Assembly (NCBI GenBank): GCA_029379285.1
Contig: JAQYWP010000002.1
Coordinates: 1-32,677, forward strand
Direction of reading: 5' to 3'
Origin: Rhizonema sp. PD38
GTDB taxonomy: Bacteria > Cyanobacteriota > Cyanobacteriia > Cyanobacteriales > Nostocaceae
Length of the DNA stretch: 32,677 bases
How positions within the stretch are numbered: the stretch's first letter is position 1; every line of letters starts with the position of its first letter. A program made the position numbers and the translations under genes. Of the stretch, positions 17,362 to 32,677 are shown piece after piece. Under the pieces are notes generated by a model. That model was not told the origin of the DNA. It worked only from the letters and a program-made list of their open reading frames with translations, and ran no database searches.

Positions 17362-17463
17362 CTACTTCAAAGCTACTTGTTTTGACATTAGTTCTTGGCA
17401 ACGATAGAGTTCTGCTAAGTTGTTGTAAATAGTGACCACATCGGGATGGTCTTCTCCCAGCCT
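17362..17463 (-). pseudogene. Relic of a TPR-repeat gene (3' end)
   Basis: On the minus strand the sequence reads RLGEDHPDVVTIYNNLAELYRC, then QELMSKQVALK and a stop at 17362-17364. LGEDHPDVxxxYNNLAxLY is the signature of kinesin-light-chain-type tetratricopeptide repeats common in cyanobacteria. Only one repeat is left. The frame stays open upstream but loses TPR character just before an inverted-repeat end at 17507, which suggests the rest of the gene was removed or displaced. Confidence 0.7.
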
Positions 17464-17506
17464 ACAATTGATGCTATCACTTTGCGGTATACTGACAAAA
17501 ATACTC

Positions 17507-17530
17507 TTAAGACTTACGCAAACTCTACTC
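17507..17530. repeat. Solo copy of the TenA-cassette terminal sequence
   Basis: ttaagacttacgcaaactc at 17507-17525 matches the outer ends of the repeats flanking the TenA gene (ttaagactgacgca at 18397, and ttaggacttacgca reading inward from 19247). It is followed by a cttggc-rich string (cttggctttcttggcgtc) often seen in cyanobacterial spacers. It may be a remnant of a related element. Confidence 0.55.
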
Positions 17531-17677
17531 TTTCTTGGCTTTCTTGGCGTCTTGGCGGTTTAATAAAAAATGGCTTGAAACACTTGGAGAACTCAGAATG
17601 AAGCTACTCCATGGAGAGAGAAACTCAATACGAACCTATAAAGTAAACTAAGAAGACGAAGAGCATCAGGAGCAGCC

Positions 17678-18376
17678 ATGTACGTGGTAATTGGTGGAGC
17701 AGGCTTAGCAGGGCTAAGTTTGGCGCAAAAACTGATAAATTTGGGGCATACTGTTGCCGTTATTGACATTGATCCTAAAGCTTGCCGCTATGCCCGCGAA
17801 CAAGTGGGAGTCATGGCTTTTGACGGCAGTGCGGTGAGTACAGAAGTTTTGTTAGAAGCAGGGATTCGTAGAGCCAACTGTTTAGTCGCGGTTCTCCGAA
17901 ATGATGCCTTGAACTTGGCGATGGTAACTCTCGCGAAGCACTACGGTGTTCCCAATATTCTGAGTCGGATGCGGCATCCGGATTTTGCCGAACCCCTGCG
18001 ATTGGCAGGAGCCAACCATATCATCAGTACTGTTGAACTAGCTGTTTCCACAATGGTGAATGCCATTGAGTATCCTCAAGTACAATCGATAATGCATTTT
18101 GAACATGGGCAAATCGAAGTTCTGAAACTTTTGATTCCAAACAATTGCTATGTTGTCAATCGTACAGTGGCTGAAATTGCTCAAGATTCCCGCTTTCCCA
18201 AAGGCTCTCTGATTATTGGCTATCAACCCCATCGCCACGAGGATTTAATGATTCCTGACGGCAGTACAGTACTGGAAGCCGATTCAACTGTGCTGATTGT
18301 AACCAAACCAGGGTCATTACATCAAGTCATTGATTTCATTGAAGGATGTACTTCACGAATTACAAGAGCGTTATAA
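17678..18376 (+). CDS. TrkA/KTN-domain potassium transport regulator
   Basis: A 232-residue protein made of one RCK_N (KTN) and one RCK_C domain. The Rossmann motif is at the very start (VVIGGAGLAGLSLA, GxGxxG type), followed by the acidic VIDIDP that binds the nucleotide ribose, and LVAVLRNDALNLAMV. The C-terminal half (about 140-225) carries the TrkA_C pattern with SLIIGYQPH and VLIVTKPGSL. Such proteins sit on the inner membrane face and gate K+ channels or Trk/Ktr transporters in response to NAD(H) or ATP/ADP. No channel gene is next to it. ATG 17678 has aggag about 6 bases upstream. Confidence 0.88.
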   Translation: MYVVIGGAGLAGLSLAQKLINLGHTVAVIDIDPKACRYAREQVGVMAFDGSAVSTEVLLEAGIRRANCLVAVLRNDALNLAMVTLAKHYGVPNILSRMRHPDFAEPLRLAGANHIISTVELAVSTMVNAIEYPQVQSIMHFEHGQIEVLKLLIPNNCYVVNRTVAEIAQDSRFPKGSLIIGYQPHRHEDLMIPDGSTVLEADSTVLIVTKPGSLHQVIDFIEGCTSRITRAL

Positions 18377-18398
18377 AATGAATGATGCGAAAGTATTT

Positions 18399-18495
18399 TA
18401 AGACTGACGCAAAAGTTTACACTCCACATAAACGAAACTTGGGCTTTTGATTCGCTTTATTCTCAACAAGTCCTACTTTTTGCTGTGAGCAATTA
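18399..18495. repeat. Left inverted repeat of TenA cassette
   Basis: Starts with TA (18399-18400) then agactgacgca. Positions 18442-18495 match the reverse complement of the right arm at about 49 of 54 bases, including the identical strings ctttattctcaacaag and cctactttttgc. The outer part also aligns with small gaps. Confidence 0.85.
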
Positions 18496-19245
18496 CAATA
18501 CTGTATAGGAATTAAAGGAAATATAAAAATGACTATTACTTGCGAACTCCTTTTACAAAATTACGCTCAATCTTGGCAAGAAGCAACTGTGCATCCCTTC
18601 CTTGAAGAGTGTCAATTAGGTACAATTCAACTCCAGCAATTTAATACATGGTTGAGGCAAGATTATCTGTTTGTTTTAGAATTTACGCGAATGGTAGGAA
18701 GAGTATTAGCCAGCGCACCTCCACAACATTTTGATGTGATACTTGGGGGATTGGCAGCTCTTAAAGACGAACTCAATTGGTTTCAAGAAAAAGCTAGTGA
18801 ACGACAACTGAATTTTAATATAAAGAAACAACCAACCTGTATAGAATACTGTGAATACATGCAGAGTATTACAGACAAGCCTTATGCTGTGCAAGCAACT
18901 GCATTTTGGGCTATTGAATTCTCATATAATCAAGGTTGGCAACTCCCAGGTAAGATGCCCGCACCTTACAATGAATTTGCAGAAAGATGGGGAAACCCTG
19001 ATTTTACAAAATATGTAAAACTTTTGGAACAGCAAGCTGATGAGGTTTTAGAAACGGCAGAGGCAGATATTCAAAAACAAGCTGAAGAATCTTTTTTAAG
19101 GGTAGCAAAATTAGAACATGATTTCTGGCAAATGGCTTTTCATACAGCATAACTTTAATCAAAATAGGTAATTGCTTACGGCAAAAAGTAGGGCTTGTTG
19201 AGAATAAAGTCAATCAAAAGCCATTTGTAGAGTGTGCGTAAGTCC
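18401..19245. mobile_element. Inverted-repeat-bounded unit carrying a TenA gene
   Basis: Two long inverted repeats (18401-18495 and 19169-19245) face each other around a single gene of another function, with TA at both outer borders. No transposase is present. The layout suits a MITE-like, TA-targeting non-autonomous element that captured a passenger gene, or two opposed copies of one small element that landed on both sides. Both are inferences; the repeat match itself is visible. Confidence 0.65.
18529..19152 (+). CDS. TenA family protein (thiaminase II-like)
   Basis: A 207-residue all-helical TenA-type protein. TenA enzymes hydrolyse thiamin breakdown products (aminopyrimidines) for salvage of the vitamin. 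Family features: FLEECQLGTIQLQQFNTWLRQDYLFV near the N-terminus, the middle helix TAFWAIEFSYNQGW, and YVKLLEQQADEVL plus EHDFWQMAF at the end. The position that carries the catalytic Cys in TenA_C proteins appears to lack it, while a Glu is present in AIEFSYNQGW, so it looks closer to the TenA_E group. No thi gene is nearby. ATG 18529 follows ggaaat closely. The gene lies wholly between two inverted repeats. Confidence 0.8.
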   Translation: MTITCELLLQNYAQSWQEATVHPFLEECQLGTIQLQQFNTWLRQDYLFVLEFTRMVGRVLASAPPQHFDVILGGLAALKDELNWFQEKASERQLNFNIKKQPTCIEYCEYMQSITDKPYAVQATAFWAIEFSYNQGWQLPGKMPAPYNEFAERWGNPDFTKYVKLLEQQADEVLETAEADIQKQAEESFLRVAKLEHDFWQMAFHTA

Positions 19246-19247
19246 TA
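19169..19247. repeat. Right inverted repeat of TenA cassette
   Basis: Reverse-complement partner of 18399-18495, ending tgcgtaagtcc and TA at 19246-19247. It begins 16 bp after the TenA stop codon, so the cassette has almost no spare sequence. Confidence 0.85.
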
Positions 19248-19304
19248 ATTTTTTTTACATCTATTAGGTTTTATGGGTTCTGCCTACTGAAATGATGAAT
19301 TTTG

Positions 19305-19877
19305 ATGAAGCTATATCTACTCTTTTATTCAGCGATCGCTGTTACTGTACTGACATCTTGCACATCCTCAAAGATTCCTCCGCAGCCACAAGCAGAGACT
19401 AGGCAGGCAAATCCATCTCAAAAGGTGGTAACTTTGGATCAAAATTTTCAGACAGTAATTGGTCAAACTATTTATGTTCCTATATACTCCTACATCTATC
19501 ACGGGGATGATAAAAGAATTTTCCATTTAGCGGCTACTCTCAGTATACGTAATACTGATTTGACCAAACCTATCGTCATTACTTCAGTGCGCTACTATGA
19601 CTCCAATGGTCAATTACTTAAACAATATTTAGAGCGTCCCATTCAACTTGCGGCCCTAGCTTCTACAGATTTTGTAGTAGATAGAGATGAGCAAGGTGGA
19701 GGTTCAGGGGCTAAATTTATTGTGGAGTGGGTAGCACAAACAAAAGTTTTTGAGCCTGTGGTTGAAGCAGTTATGATTGGTACTGACTTTCAACAAGGAA
19801 TTTCCTTGATCAGTCCTGGTAGAGTTATTAAAAGTCAAAATAATTACAAGCCCTCAACTTCAAAGCAGGGATCTTAA
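19305..19877 (+). CDS. DUF3124 lipoprotein
   Basis: A 190-residue protein beginning with a lipoprotein signal peptide: MKLYLLFYSAIAVTVLTSC, with LTSC as the lipobox. The mature part has VIGQTIYVPIYSYIYHGDD, then LAATLSIRNTDLTKPIVITSVRYYD and a late FIVEWVA strand, which fit the DUF3124 family of secreted or periplasmic lipid-anchored proteins of unknown function. ATG 19305 is chosen over the adjacent TTG 19302. Its last four bases overlap the 3' end of the antiporter gene on the opposite strand, so the two stop codons interlock. Confidence 0.78.
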   Translation: MKLYLLFYSAIAVTVLTSCTSSKIPPQPQAETRQANPSQKVVTLDQNFQTVIGQTIYVPIYSYIYHGDDKRIFHLAATLSIRNTDLTKPIVITSVRYYDSNGQLLKQYLERPIQLAALASTDFVVDRDEQGGGSGAKFIVEWVAQTKVFEPVVEAVMIGTDFQQGISLISPGRVIKSQNNYKPSTSKQGS

Positions 19878-21427
19878 TCATCTTCTAGTCTCACCAATTG
19901 CTCATCAATTTTTTTTAGCCGCTCTCGCACAATTTCTTCTGAGAGAATTCGCTTGCGTATTGCCTCGTTTAGTGCCGCTTTTTCCGCCTGTAGTAAACGG
20001 CGACGAATCGCATCAAGTTTCTTGTATTCACCACTTTTGACATCAAACTGATCCAGGCGGCGATTATAGAGTTCCCGTAGTGCCTTTTCTGCACTAGCTA
20101 CGCGCACCTGATATGCTGAGCGCATTTCTTCATAAATAGCTTTTGGTAATATCCCTGACTTCAACAGGCTATCTAATTCATCTTGTGCTGCCTTACCCGT
20201 GATTAACTGGGCTTGCAATTCTTCAACTGGTTGACGAGCTGCAACCGAGTCAGATATGTGTAACCGTTTCACCAGCCAAGGCAAACTCACCGCCTGCCCG
20301 ACTAAAGACAGCAACACCGAGCCAAATACGATGGCAATCAGTTGCTCTCGCCCGGCGATCGCATTGGGTAAGCTGAGCGCCAGTGCCATAGAAAGAGAGC
20401 CTTTGATATTGCCAAGAAATAAGACGTGCTGCCAGCGCCAAGGAATTGGGCGGTCAAACCAACGTATCATAGCTAATAGCAGATAGACACAAAGTAAGCG
20501 TCCTACTTGGTAAGCGAGGATTGCCAGTGCTACAGCCGGCAGAGTTTTCCATAAAGTTCCTAAGTCAACTTCTATACCGATGAGCAGGAAAATAAAACTA
20601 TTAACACCGAAAGAGATTGACTCCCAAAAGCTAAGTAACGTCAATCGAGTAGAAGCTGATACTTTTTCTGAAATCCCTATAGTGCCGACAATTAATCCAG
20701 CAACAACCACAGCTACCACACCGGAAACGCTCAATGATTCCCCGATTTTATAAGCTCCCAATGCTACAGCTACGGTTAGTAAAATACTACTGAGTGGCTC
20801 ATCAGAGCGGACAAATAAACCTGTACTTAAATAGCCCAAAGTAATTCCGAGAACAGTTCCACCAACAATCACCACAAACAATTCTTGTAATCCTTCTAGA
20901 ACTGTTATTGAGCCTGCCGCATTAACTTTCAAAATCAGGCTAAATAAAACCAGTGCCACACCATCGTTAAATAAGCTTTCTCCCTCAATAATTGAGGCAA
21001 GACGAGAAGGAACTGGTACCTCCTTGAACACAGCAATCACGGAAACGGTATCGGTAATTGCTAAAATCACCCCAACCAAAAGTGCCGGAGTCCAAGTTAG
21101 CCCTAGTCCCCATTTTAGCAACACAGCTGTCACACCAGAGGAAATCAAAACCCCAGGTCCTGCTAGTAAGGCTATTGGTTTAATCGTGTTGCGGAGGCGG
21201 CTCATATCAGTATTGATAGCTGCCTCAAACACCAGAATCGGCAGAAAAATATTCAGAATTAGAGAATCATTCAAACCAATACGCCGTGGCAAGAGTTCGG
21301 TGATTGCTAAGCCCGCTAACACTAATCCTGTGACATAAGGAACGCGCAACCTACGGCAAAGCAGAGCTACAACGGTGGCAACGAGCAGGAGAATAATGAC
21401 AACTGTGACTAATTCAGCAACGTCCAC
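19874..21427 (-). CDS. CPA1 Na+/H+ antiporter
   Basis: A cation:proton antiporter in the plasma membrane with about 12 hydrophobic helices over the first ~400 residues, beginning with LVTVVIILLLVATVVALL. Key family residues: the P-loop region around LPILVFEAAINTD, SLFNDGVALVLF with the Asn-Asp ion-binding pair, and GNIKGSLSMALALSLP in the later core helices. A soluble, charged and probably coiled-coil tail of ~110 residues (EELQAQLITGKAAQDEL through to the end) may regulate it. The start is unsure: GTG 21427 gives a tight N-terminus (about 517 residues), while TTG 21493 adds 22 residues. It could also move K+ rather than Na+. Confidence 0.87.
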   Translation of the reverse strand: MDVAELVTVVIILLLVATVVALLCRRLRVPYVTGLVLAGLAITELLPRRIGLNDSLILNIFLPILVFEAAINTDMSRLRNTIKPIALLAGPGVLISSGVTAVLLKWGLGLTWTPALLVGVILAITDTVSVIAVFKEVPVPSRLASIIEGESLFNDGVALVLFSLILKVNAAGSITVLEGLQELFVVIVGGTVLGITLGYLSTGLFVRSDEPLSSILLTVAVALGAYKIGESLSVSGVVAVVVAGLIVGTIGISEKVSASTRLTLLSFWESISFGVNSFIFLLIGIEVDLGTLWKTLPAVALAILAYQVGRLLCVYLLLAMIRWFDRPIPWRWQHVLFLGNIKGSLSMALALSLPNAIAGREQLIAIVFGSVLLSLVGQAVSLPWLVKRLHISDSVAARQPVEELQAQLITGKAAQDELDSLLKSGILPKAIYEEMRSAYQVRVASAEKALRELYNRRLDQFDVKSGEYKKLDAIRRRLLQAEKAALNEAIRKRILSEEIVRERLKKIDEQLVRLEDD

Positions 21428-32399: not shown

Positions 32400-32558
32400 T
32401 CACCTCCACAATTTTCCGAACCTTTCCGGATTAGTCGCGGTATAGCGAACGGTGTGCTGTATATTCCGATGCCCCAGATAGTCTTGGATCAGCCGTGTAT
32501 CCGCGCCCTGATCCGCCAAAACATAGCCGCACGCATGGCGCAGCATGTGCGGGTGCGC
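32400..32558 (-). pseudogene. Tyrosine recombinase, C-terminal fragment
   Basis: The sequence HPHMLRHACGYVLADQGADT, then RLIQDYLGHRNIQHTVRYTA, and PERFGKLWR with a stop carries the HxLRH, GHxN and Tyr-nucleophile (VRYT) elements of a phage-integrase catalytic core. The N-terminal domain and first catalytic Arg are absent. Residues upstream of HPHML (above about 32560) show no integrase similarity although the frame stays open to 32642, so the gene was cut by a rearrangement. The remaining piece cannot act alone. Confidence 0.85.
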
Positions 32559-32677
32559 TGCTATACCAGTTAAAAACTGTAACTCCTTGTTTTTAAAGAA
32601 TTTCAGATTTTTCTGACTGGAATACCAAGCGTCAGTAGTCACAGTATGAGGCTACAAACCCCAAACCAAAACCTCAG

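Follow-up and report, generated by a model that had tools for sequence, protein, structure and literature searches.

This locus raises the question of whether a single metabolic gene reached its place in the genome of Rhizonema sp. PD38 as the passenger of a transposon that has no transposase. The gene, a tenA homolog, lies between inverted repeats in an 849-bp stretch at positions 18399–19247 of the window (the whole 32,677-nucleotide stretch of DNA that was analyzed). In the initial annotation, the stretch was described as a transposase-free cassette that moves a metabolic gene and is bordered by TA dinucleotides. The reading that we favor, with modest confidence, is that the cassette is a mobile-insertion-cassette-like (MIC-like) element that was built on a MITE and was moved as a unit.

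Anatomy of the cassette

The coordinates originally given for the inverted repeats proved to be exact. The features of the cassette and its borders are as follows (window coordinates, strand, description).

18399–19247, + strand: whole cassette; tenA and its inverted hairpin-repeat arms within MITE-type ends, without a transposase
18399–18418, + strand: outer left end; left-type end of a YAGGACTTACGCA MITE, with a 20-nt match to a MITE in the same genome
18440–18496, − strand: left inner arm; copy of a 57-nt two-hairpin repeat (model R1 bit score, 73.9)
18529–19152, + strand: tenA passenger gene (TenA_E-like, 207 aa); Pfam PF03070, best solved relative 2F2G
19168–19223, + strand: right inner arm; second copy of the 57-nt two-hairpin repeat, in the opposite orientation (model R1, 69.3)
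19223–19247, − strand: outer right end; right-type MITE end, with exact matches of up to 28 nt in other Nostocaceae
18395–18399, no strand: candidate left target duplication, ATTTT; its last base is also the first of the end, suggestive only
19248–19252, no strand: candidate right target duplication, ATTTT; from sequence, suggestive only
17678–18376, + strand: trkA-like gene; borders the insertion site on the left; domain match and synteny
19302–19877, + strand: DUF3124 gene; borders the insertion site on the right; domain match and synteny

The inner parts of the arms (18442–18496 and 19168–19222; 55 nt) are 91% complementary and are spaced by 671 nt. Outward of them, the pairing continues, interrupted by indels, as far as TAAGACTGACGC at 18399 on the left and GCGTAAGTCCTA, which ends at 19247, on the right. 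As had been noted at the outset, a thiaminase-like gene is the only one enclosed, and the right repeat starts 16 bp past its stop codon (19150–19152). The right arm also starts directly after an in-frame TAG (19165–19167), at which the Nostoc reading frames end. The stretch has two features of a MIC: it is bracketed by inverted repeats of a MITE family, and only a passenger gene, with no transposase gene, is located between the ends.

The outer ends and their MITE family

The conserved end of this MITE family, YAGGACTTACGCA, occurs about 140 times in the Rhizonema sp. PD38 genome; using TTAGGACTTACGCA, 140 sites were found at ≤1 mismatch, compared to 5 for the reversed control. Paired YAGGACTTACGCA ends delimit MITEs of about 80–380 bp, and foreign inserts are frequent in the middle of these elements. 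The canonical MITE is 93 bp long and has two distinct ends, the left one reading YAGGACTTACGCAAAA(A/G)TTGC and the right one, read inward, YAGGACTTACGCACACTCTACGAATTC. Outside the GGAC core, left ends have TA or CA, and right ends have TA or TG. An exact 5-bp duplication is located immediately outside the ends in 29 of the 43 paired elements (2.1% with shuffled flanks).

In the cassette, the two ends are in the proper order, left-type at 18399 and right-type at 19247; the MITE that matches the outer left end carries the same T to G variant. TA is indeed present at both outer ends, as the initial annotation had stated. However, because YAGGACTTACGCA-ended elements duplicate 5 bp, this TA is part of the conserved end and not a duplication. 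When the cassette's flanks were read directly, no exact in-register target duplication was found: in register, the flanks are TATTT and ATTTT (3 of 5 bases equal). Were one T of the T-run to have been lost, the flanks would be ATTTT on both sides (5/5), which is suggestive only.

A further end-like sequence at 17507 had been taken to indicate repeated activity. It is a real right-type end of the same MITE family, but it belongs to an ordinary truncated MITE fragment (the right half, 17507–17581) that is unrelated to the cassette, and repeated activity at the locus is not supported: no second copy of the cassette, here or at another location, was found in 218 family genomes. The truncated MITE is joined to a gene remnant (17568–17604) whose fuller counterpart in a relative, G001, resembles part of a toxin-antitoxin pair.

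A candidate source of transposase

The same 13-bp ends (with one mismatch in some) are found on an insertion sequence (IS) of about 1.19 kb that is located on Nostocales plasmids. Two of its three copies have exact 5-bp duplications (ATTTA and AAATT). Its transposase matches Pfam DDE_Tnp_1 and is labeled IS701 in two records. Published IS701 has a 4-bp duplication and a length of 1400–1550 bp (PMC2266710), compared to 5 bp and about 1190 bp for the IS with YAGGACTTACGCA ends; because of this misfit, the latter is termed “IS4/IS701-like” here. Having the cassette's ends and a DDE_Tnp_1 transposase, it is the likely helper among IS4/IS701-like insertion sequences, and it probably drives the abundant Nostocaceae MITE group. 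No intact helper transposase, only fragments, was found in the Rhizonema sp. PD38 assembly, which consists of 1297 contigs and breaks at repeats. One IS4/IS701-like transposase fragment (71% identity, one stop) is located at the window's right end (32553–32675).

The inner arms

The inner arms do not derive from the MITE: each is a copy of a 57-nt repeat that forms a pair of small hairpins, and the two copies face in opposite directions. Copies in family genomes were counted using a pattern search and a covariance model (R1). The repeat was found in 35 of 218 Nostocaceae-family genomes, with one to three copies in each that adjoin unrelated genes. When the left arm was compared to the whole Rhizonema sp. 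PD38 genome, its sole match was the right arm (E = 4e-15; next, E = 0.08). The arms had no match in plasmid records, nothing credible in Rfam, and no counterpart beside tenA of other genera; neither a terminator nor a convincing promoter signal was detected.

Both Rhizonema arms have GTAGG where most or all of the copies in other genera have GCAGG or GCTGG, and both have CAAAAGCC where most or all of the others have ACAAGCC. Because these derived bases are common to both arms, the arms share an origin and do not have the independent histories that had initially been considered; the pattern points to a single repeat copy that was doubled in inverted orientation. The left arm extends further outward than the right one, and it resembles a longer copy in another genus.

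An arrangement of two independent MITEs flanking tenA was also considered. It is disfavored by the outer ends, which are the left-type and right-type ends of the same element, and by the inner arms, which are not derived from a MITE.

The initial annotation had proposed a search for the repeats alone and with other passengers. Both the 57-nt repeat and the MITE ends do occur elsewhere, but gene-bearing elements of 0.4–3 kb with YAGGACTTACGCA ends were absent among the sites listed for this genome and two others. In the genus termed g7, a member of the family, the 57-nt repeat has the same neighborhood in several genomes, with a pheT-like gene and a small antitoxin-like gene close by; these genomes usually have a single copy, an unexpected pattern for a mobile repeat.

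Insertion site and distribution

Four Rhizonema genomes were sampled; the loci compared to that of the window are from Rhizonema sp. NSF051, Rhizonema sp. PD37, and an “uncultured Scytonema” metagenome-assembled genome. The cassette is present in all four, at one site between trkA and DUF3124. That tenA might be found at this locus in all relatives without the repeats had been raised initially; instead, 14 other Nostocales genomes have trkA beside DUF3124 with no intervening tenA. The trkA–DUF3124 gap was 17 to 160 bp in the nine tenA-less genomes in which it was measured. Because of this distribution, the cassette is, as judged by gene order, a genus-level insertion. Approximately 105 bp of Rhizonema intergenic DNA lie outside of the cassette, and they are not alignable to the 22-bp gaps in those genomes whose DUF3124 is most similar.

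The cassette is older than the split of the four sampled Rhizonema genomes. In one relative (G002), 105 bp have been lost, including the left end and most of the left arm; in Rhizonema PD37 (G003), tenA is frameshifted. These observations fit a cassette that landed once and has since been vertically inherited while decaying.

Other differences were observed near the site. In Rhizonema PD37, a deletion equivalent to window positions 17366–18028 removes the start of trkA, and the antiporter gene lacks the piece corresponding to 20518–20771. At the end of trkA (18346–18376), the relatives' stop codon (TGA after ACTTCA) is CGA in the window, and the protein is a few residues longer toward the cassette.

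The passenger gene

The 207-residue product of tenA matches Pfam TENA_THI-4 (E = 7e-26), and its best solved relative is the Arabidopsis protein 2F2G, with which the sequence TAFWAIE aligns identically. The glutamate of FWAIE is found in place of the active-site cysteine of TenA_C. The TenA_E class lacks this cysteine and has a conserved glutamate instead, and cyanobacterial members have already been described (PMC5635689). Compared to known TenA_E thiamin-pyrimidine salvage proteins, the cassette's TenA is alike in its lack of the cysteine, its FWAIE glutamate, and the closeness of plant 2F2G, and nothing notable is different. By this likeness, the gene would be a TenA_E-like gene for thiamin-pyrimidine (vitamin B1) salvage.

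Rhizonema tenA and Nostoc tenA are 91–92% identical in DNA sequence, and their identity at fourfold sites is 83–88%. The corresponding fourfold-site values for the flanking genes, compared to eight other genomes (members of the family or order, other than the tenA-bearing Nostoc strains), are 42–60% for trkA, 43–74% for DUF3124, and 32–46% for nhaP. In the tenA tree, the four Rhizonema sequences are located beside seven from the Nostoc group, with 100/99 support for the eleven. Because the fourfold-site identity to Nostoc is far above that of the flanking genes (83–88% vs. 32–74%), tenA is, on this comparison, a gene horizontally exchanged between Rhizonema and the Nostoc group, in either direction. 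The similarity to Nostoc begins 3 nt upstream of the start codon, extends to the TAG at 19165–19167, and ends where the right arm starts.

The Nostoc copies of tenA are without arms and have variable neighborhoods. These strains share a conserved block of ca. 700 bp (from 62 nt before the start to ca. 20 nt past the stop) between differing flanks; because of this, tenA may be mobile in Nostoc by another route.

Origin of the cassette

In the course of events that we favor, YAGGACTTACGCA MITE ends would have enclosed an inverted pair of 57-nt hairpin repeats and a horizontally exchanged TenA_E-like gene, without a transposase. The 849 bp would have arrived as one transposed unit, with an IS4/IS701-like transposase acting in trans, and vertical inheritance and decay would have followed the landing. 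The original description of a transposase-free metabolic-gene cassette is upheld by the MITE-type ends, the tenA-less site in other genera, and the exchanged passenger; the movement itself is what we infer from them. Weighing against this reading are the cassette's single copy at one site, the in-register flanks that agree at 3 of 5 bases, the fragmentary transposases of this genome, and the absence, among the listed sites, of another gene-bearing MITE of the group.

A lesser, though still substantial, possibility is that the 849 bp never moved whole: an ordinary MITE between trkA and DUF3124 could have gained the repeat and tenA later, the gene by recombination and the second arm by inverted duplication. 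The central foreign inserts often carried by YAGGACTTACGCA MITEs are in keeping with such stepwise growth, as are the occurrence of the 57-nt repeat, unrelated to the MITE, on its own elsewhere and the single location of the whole cassette. However, a single short intergenic region would then have had to undergo several independent events before the genus diverged, and none of the four Rhizonema genomes shows an intermediate.

It is improbable that the arms serve the expression of tenA, with hairpins that shield or tune its mRNA, and that mobility is incidental. The two-hairpin fold of the repeat, the retention of the arms in three of four Rhizonema genomes, and the co-directionality of tenA with trkA and DUF3124 would suit this role. 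Arguing against it are the armless tenA of Nostoc, the unrelated genes beside other copies of the repeat, the lack of terminator and convincing promoter signals, and the loss of most of the left arm in one relative.

The helper type named in the initial annotation, Tc1/mariner or IS630, did not hold up: that the cassette derives from such an element by TA duplication is very improbable, given that the outer TA dinucleotides and the presence of IS630-type transposases in the genome (19 DDE_3 domain matches) are outweighed by the 5-bp duplications of same-ended elements, the varying bases outside the GGAC core, the DDE_Tnp_1 transposase of the IS that has these ends, and the absence of a pair of YAGGACTTACGCA-type ends around any of the 19 matches, for which reason these transposases were rejected as helpers.

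Returning to the favored reading of a MIC-like element moved as a unit, a broader proposal can be attached to it: YAGGACTTACGCA MITEs might be gene-capture vehicles of the Nostocales that, when mobilized in trans by an IS4/IS701-like element, carry individual metabolic genes (tenA, for example) from one lichen-forming cyanobacterium to another, with the 57-nt repeat aiding capture. We regard this as unlikely.

Comparison with known systems

Across this lichen-forming cyanobacterial genus, a vitamin-salvage gene shared with Nostoc is located within MITE ends in an ancient ion-transport gene cluster. As an example of a metabolic gene borne by a very small transposon, the locus is credible, although the element has probably been immobile for a long time. 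The sequences also define, for an abundant group of Nostocaceae MITEs, both the ends and the 5-bp duplication.

Most known transposase-free cassettes come from antibiotic-resistance settings. One mobile insertion cassette is MIC231 of Bacillus cereus. Further examples are the mic of qnrD (PMC3913671) and the MICE of qnrS2 (PMC5444012). All three are like the Rhizonema cassette in that they have IS-type inverted-repeat ends, a passenger that replaces the transposase, and presumed mobilization in trans. The Rhizonema cassette differs in its end family (YAGGACTTACGCA, 5 bp), its vitamin-salvage passenger, the unrelated hairpin repeat nested in its arms, and a mobility that is putative. Cyanobacterial MITEs such as Nezha (reviewed in PMC10969869), compared here by description, are also short and non-autonomous, with inverted ends and many copies per genome; they differ in that no conserved gene is carried. 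Objects of the cassette's kind are known already; what is new is its passenger, its host, its end family, and its nested hairpin-repeat arms.
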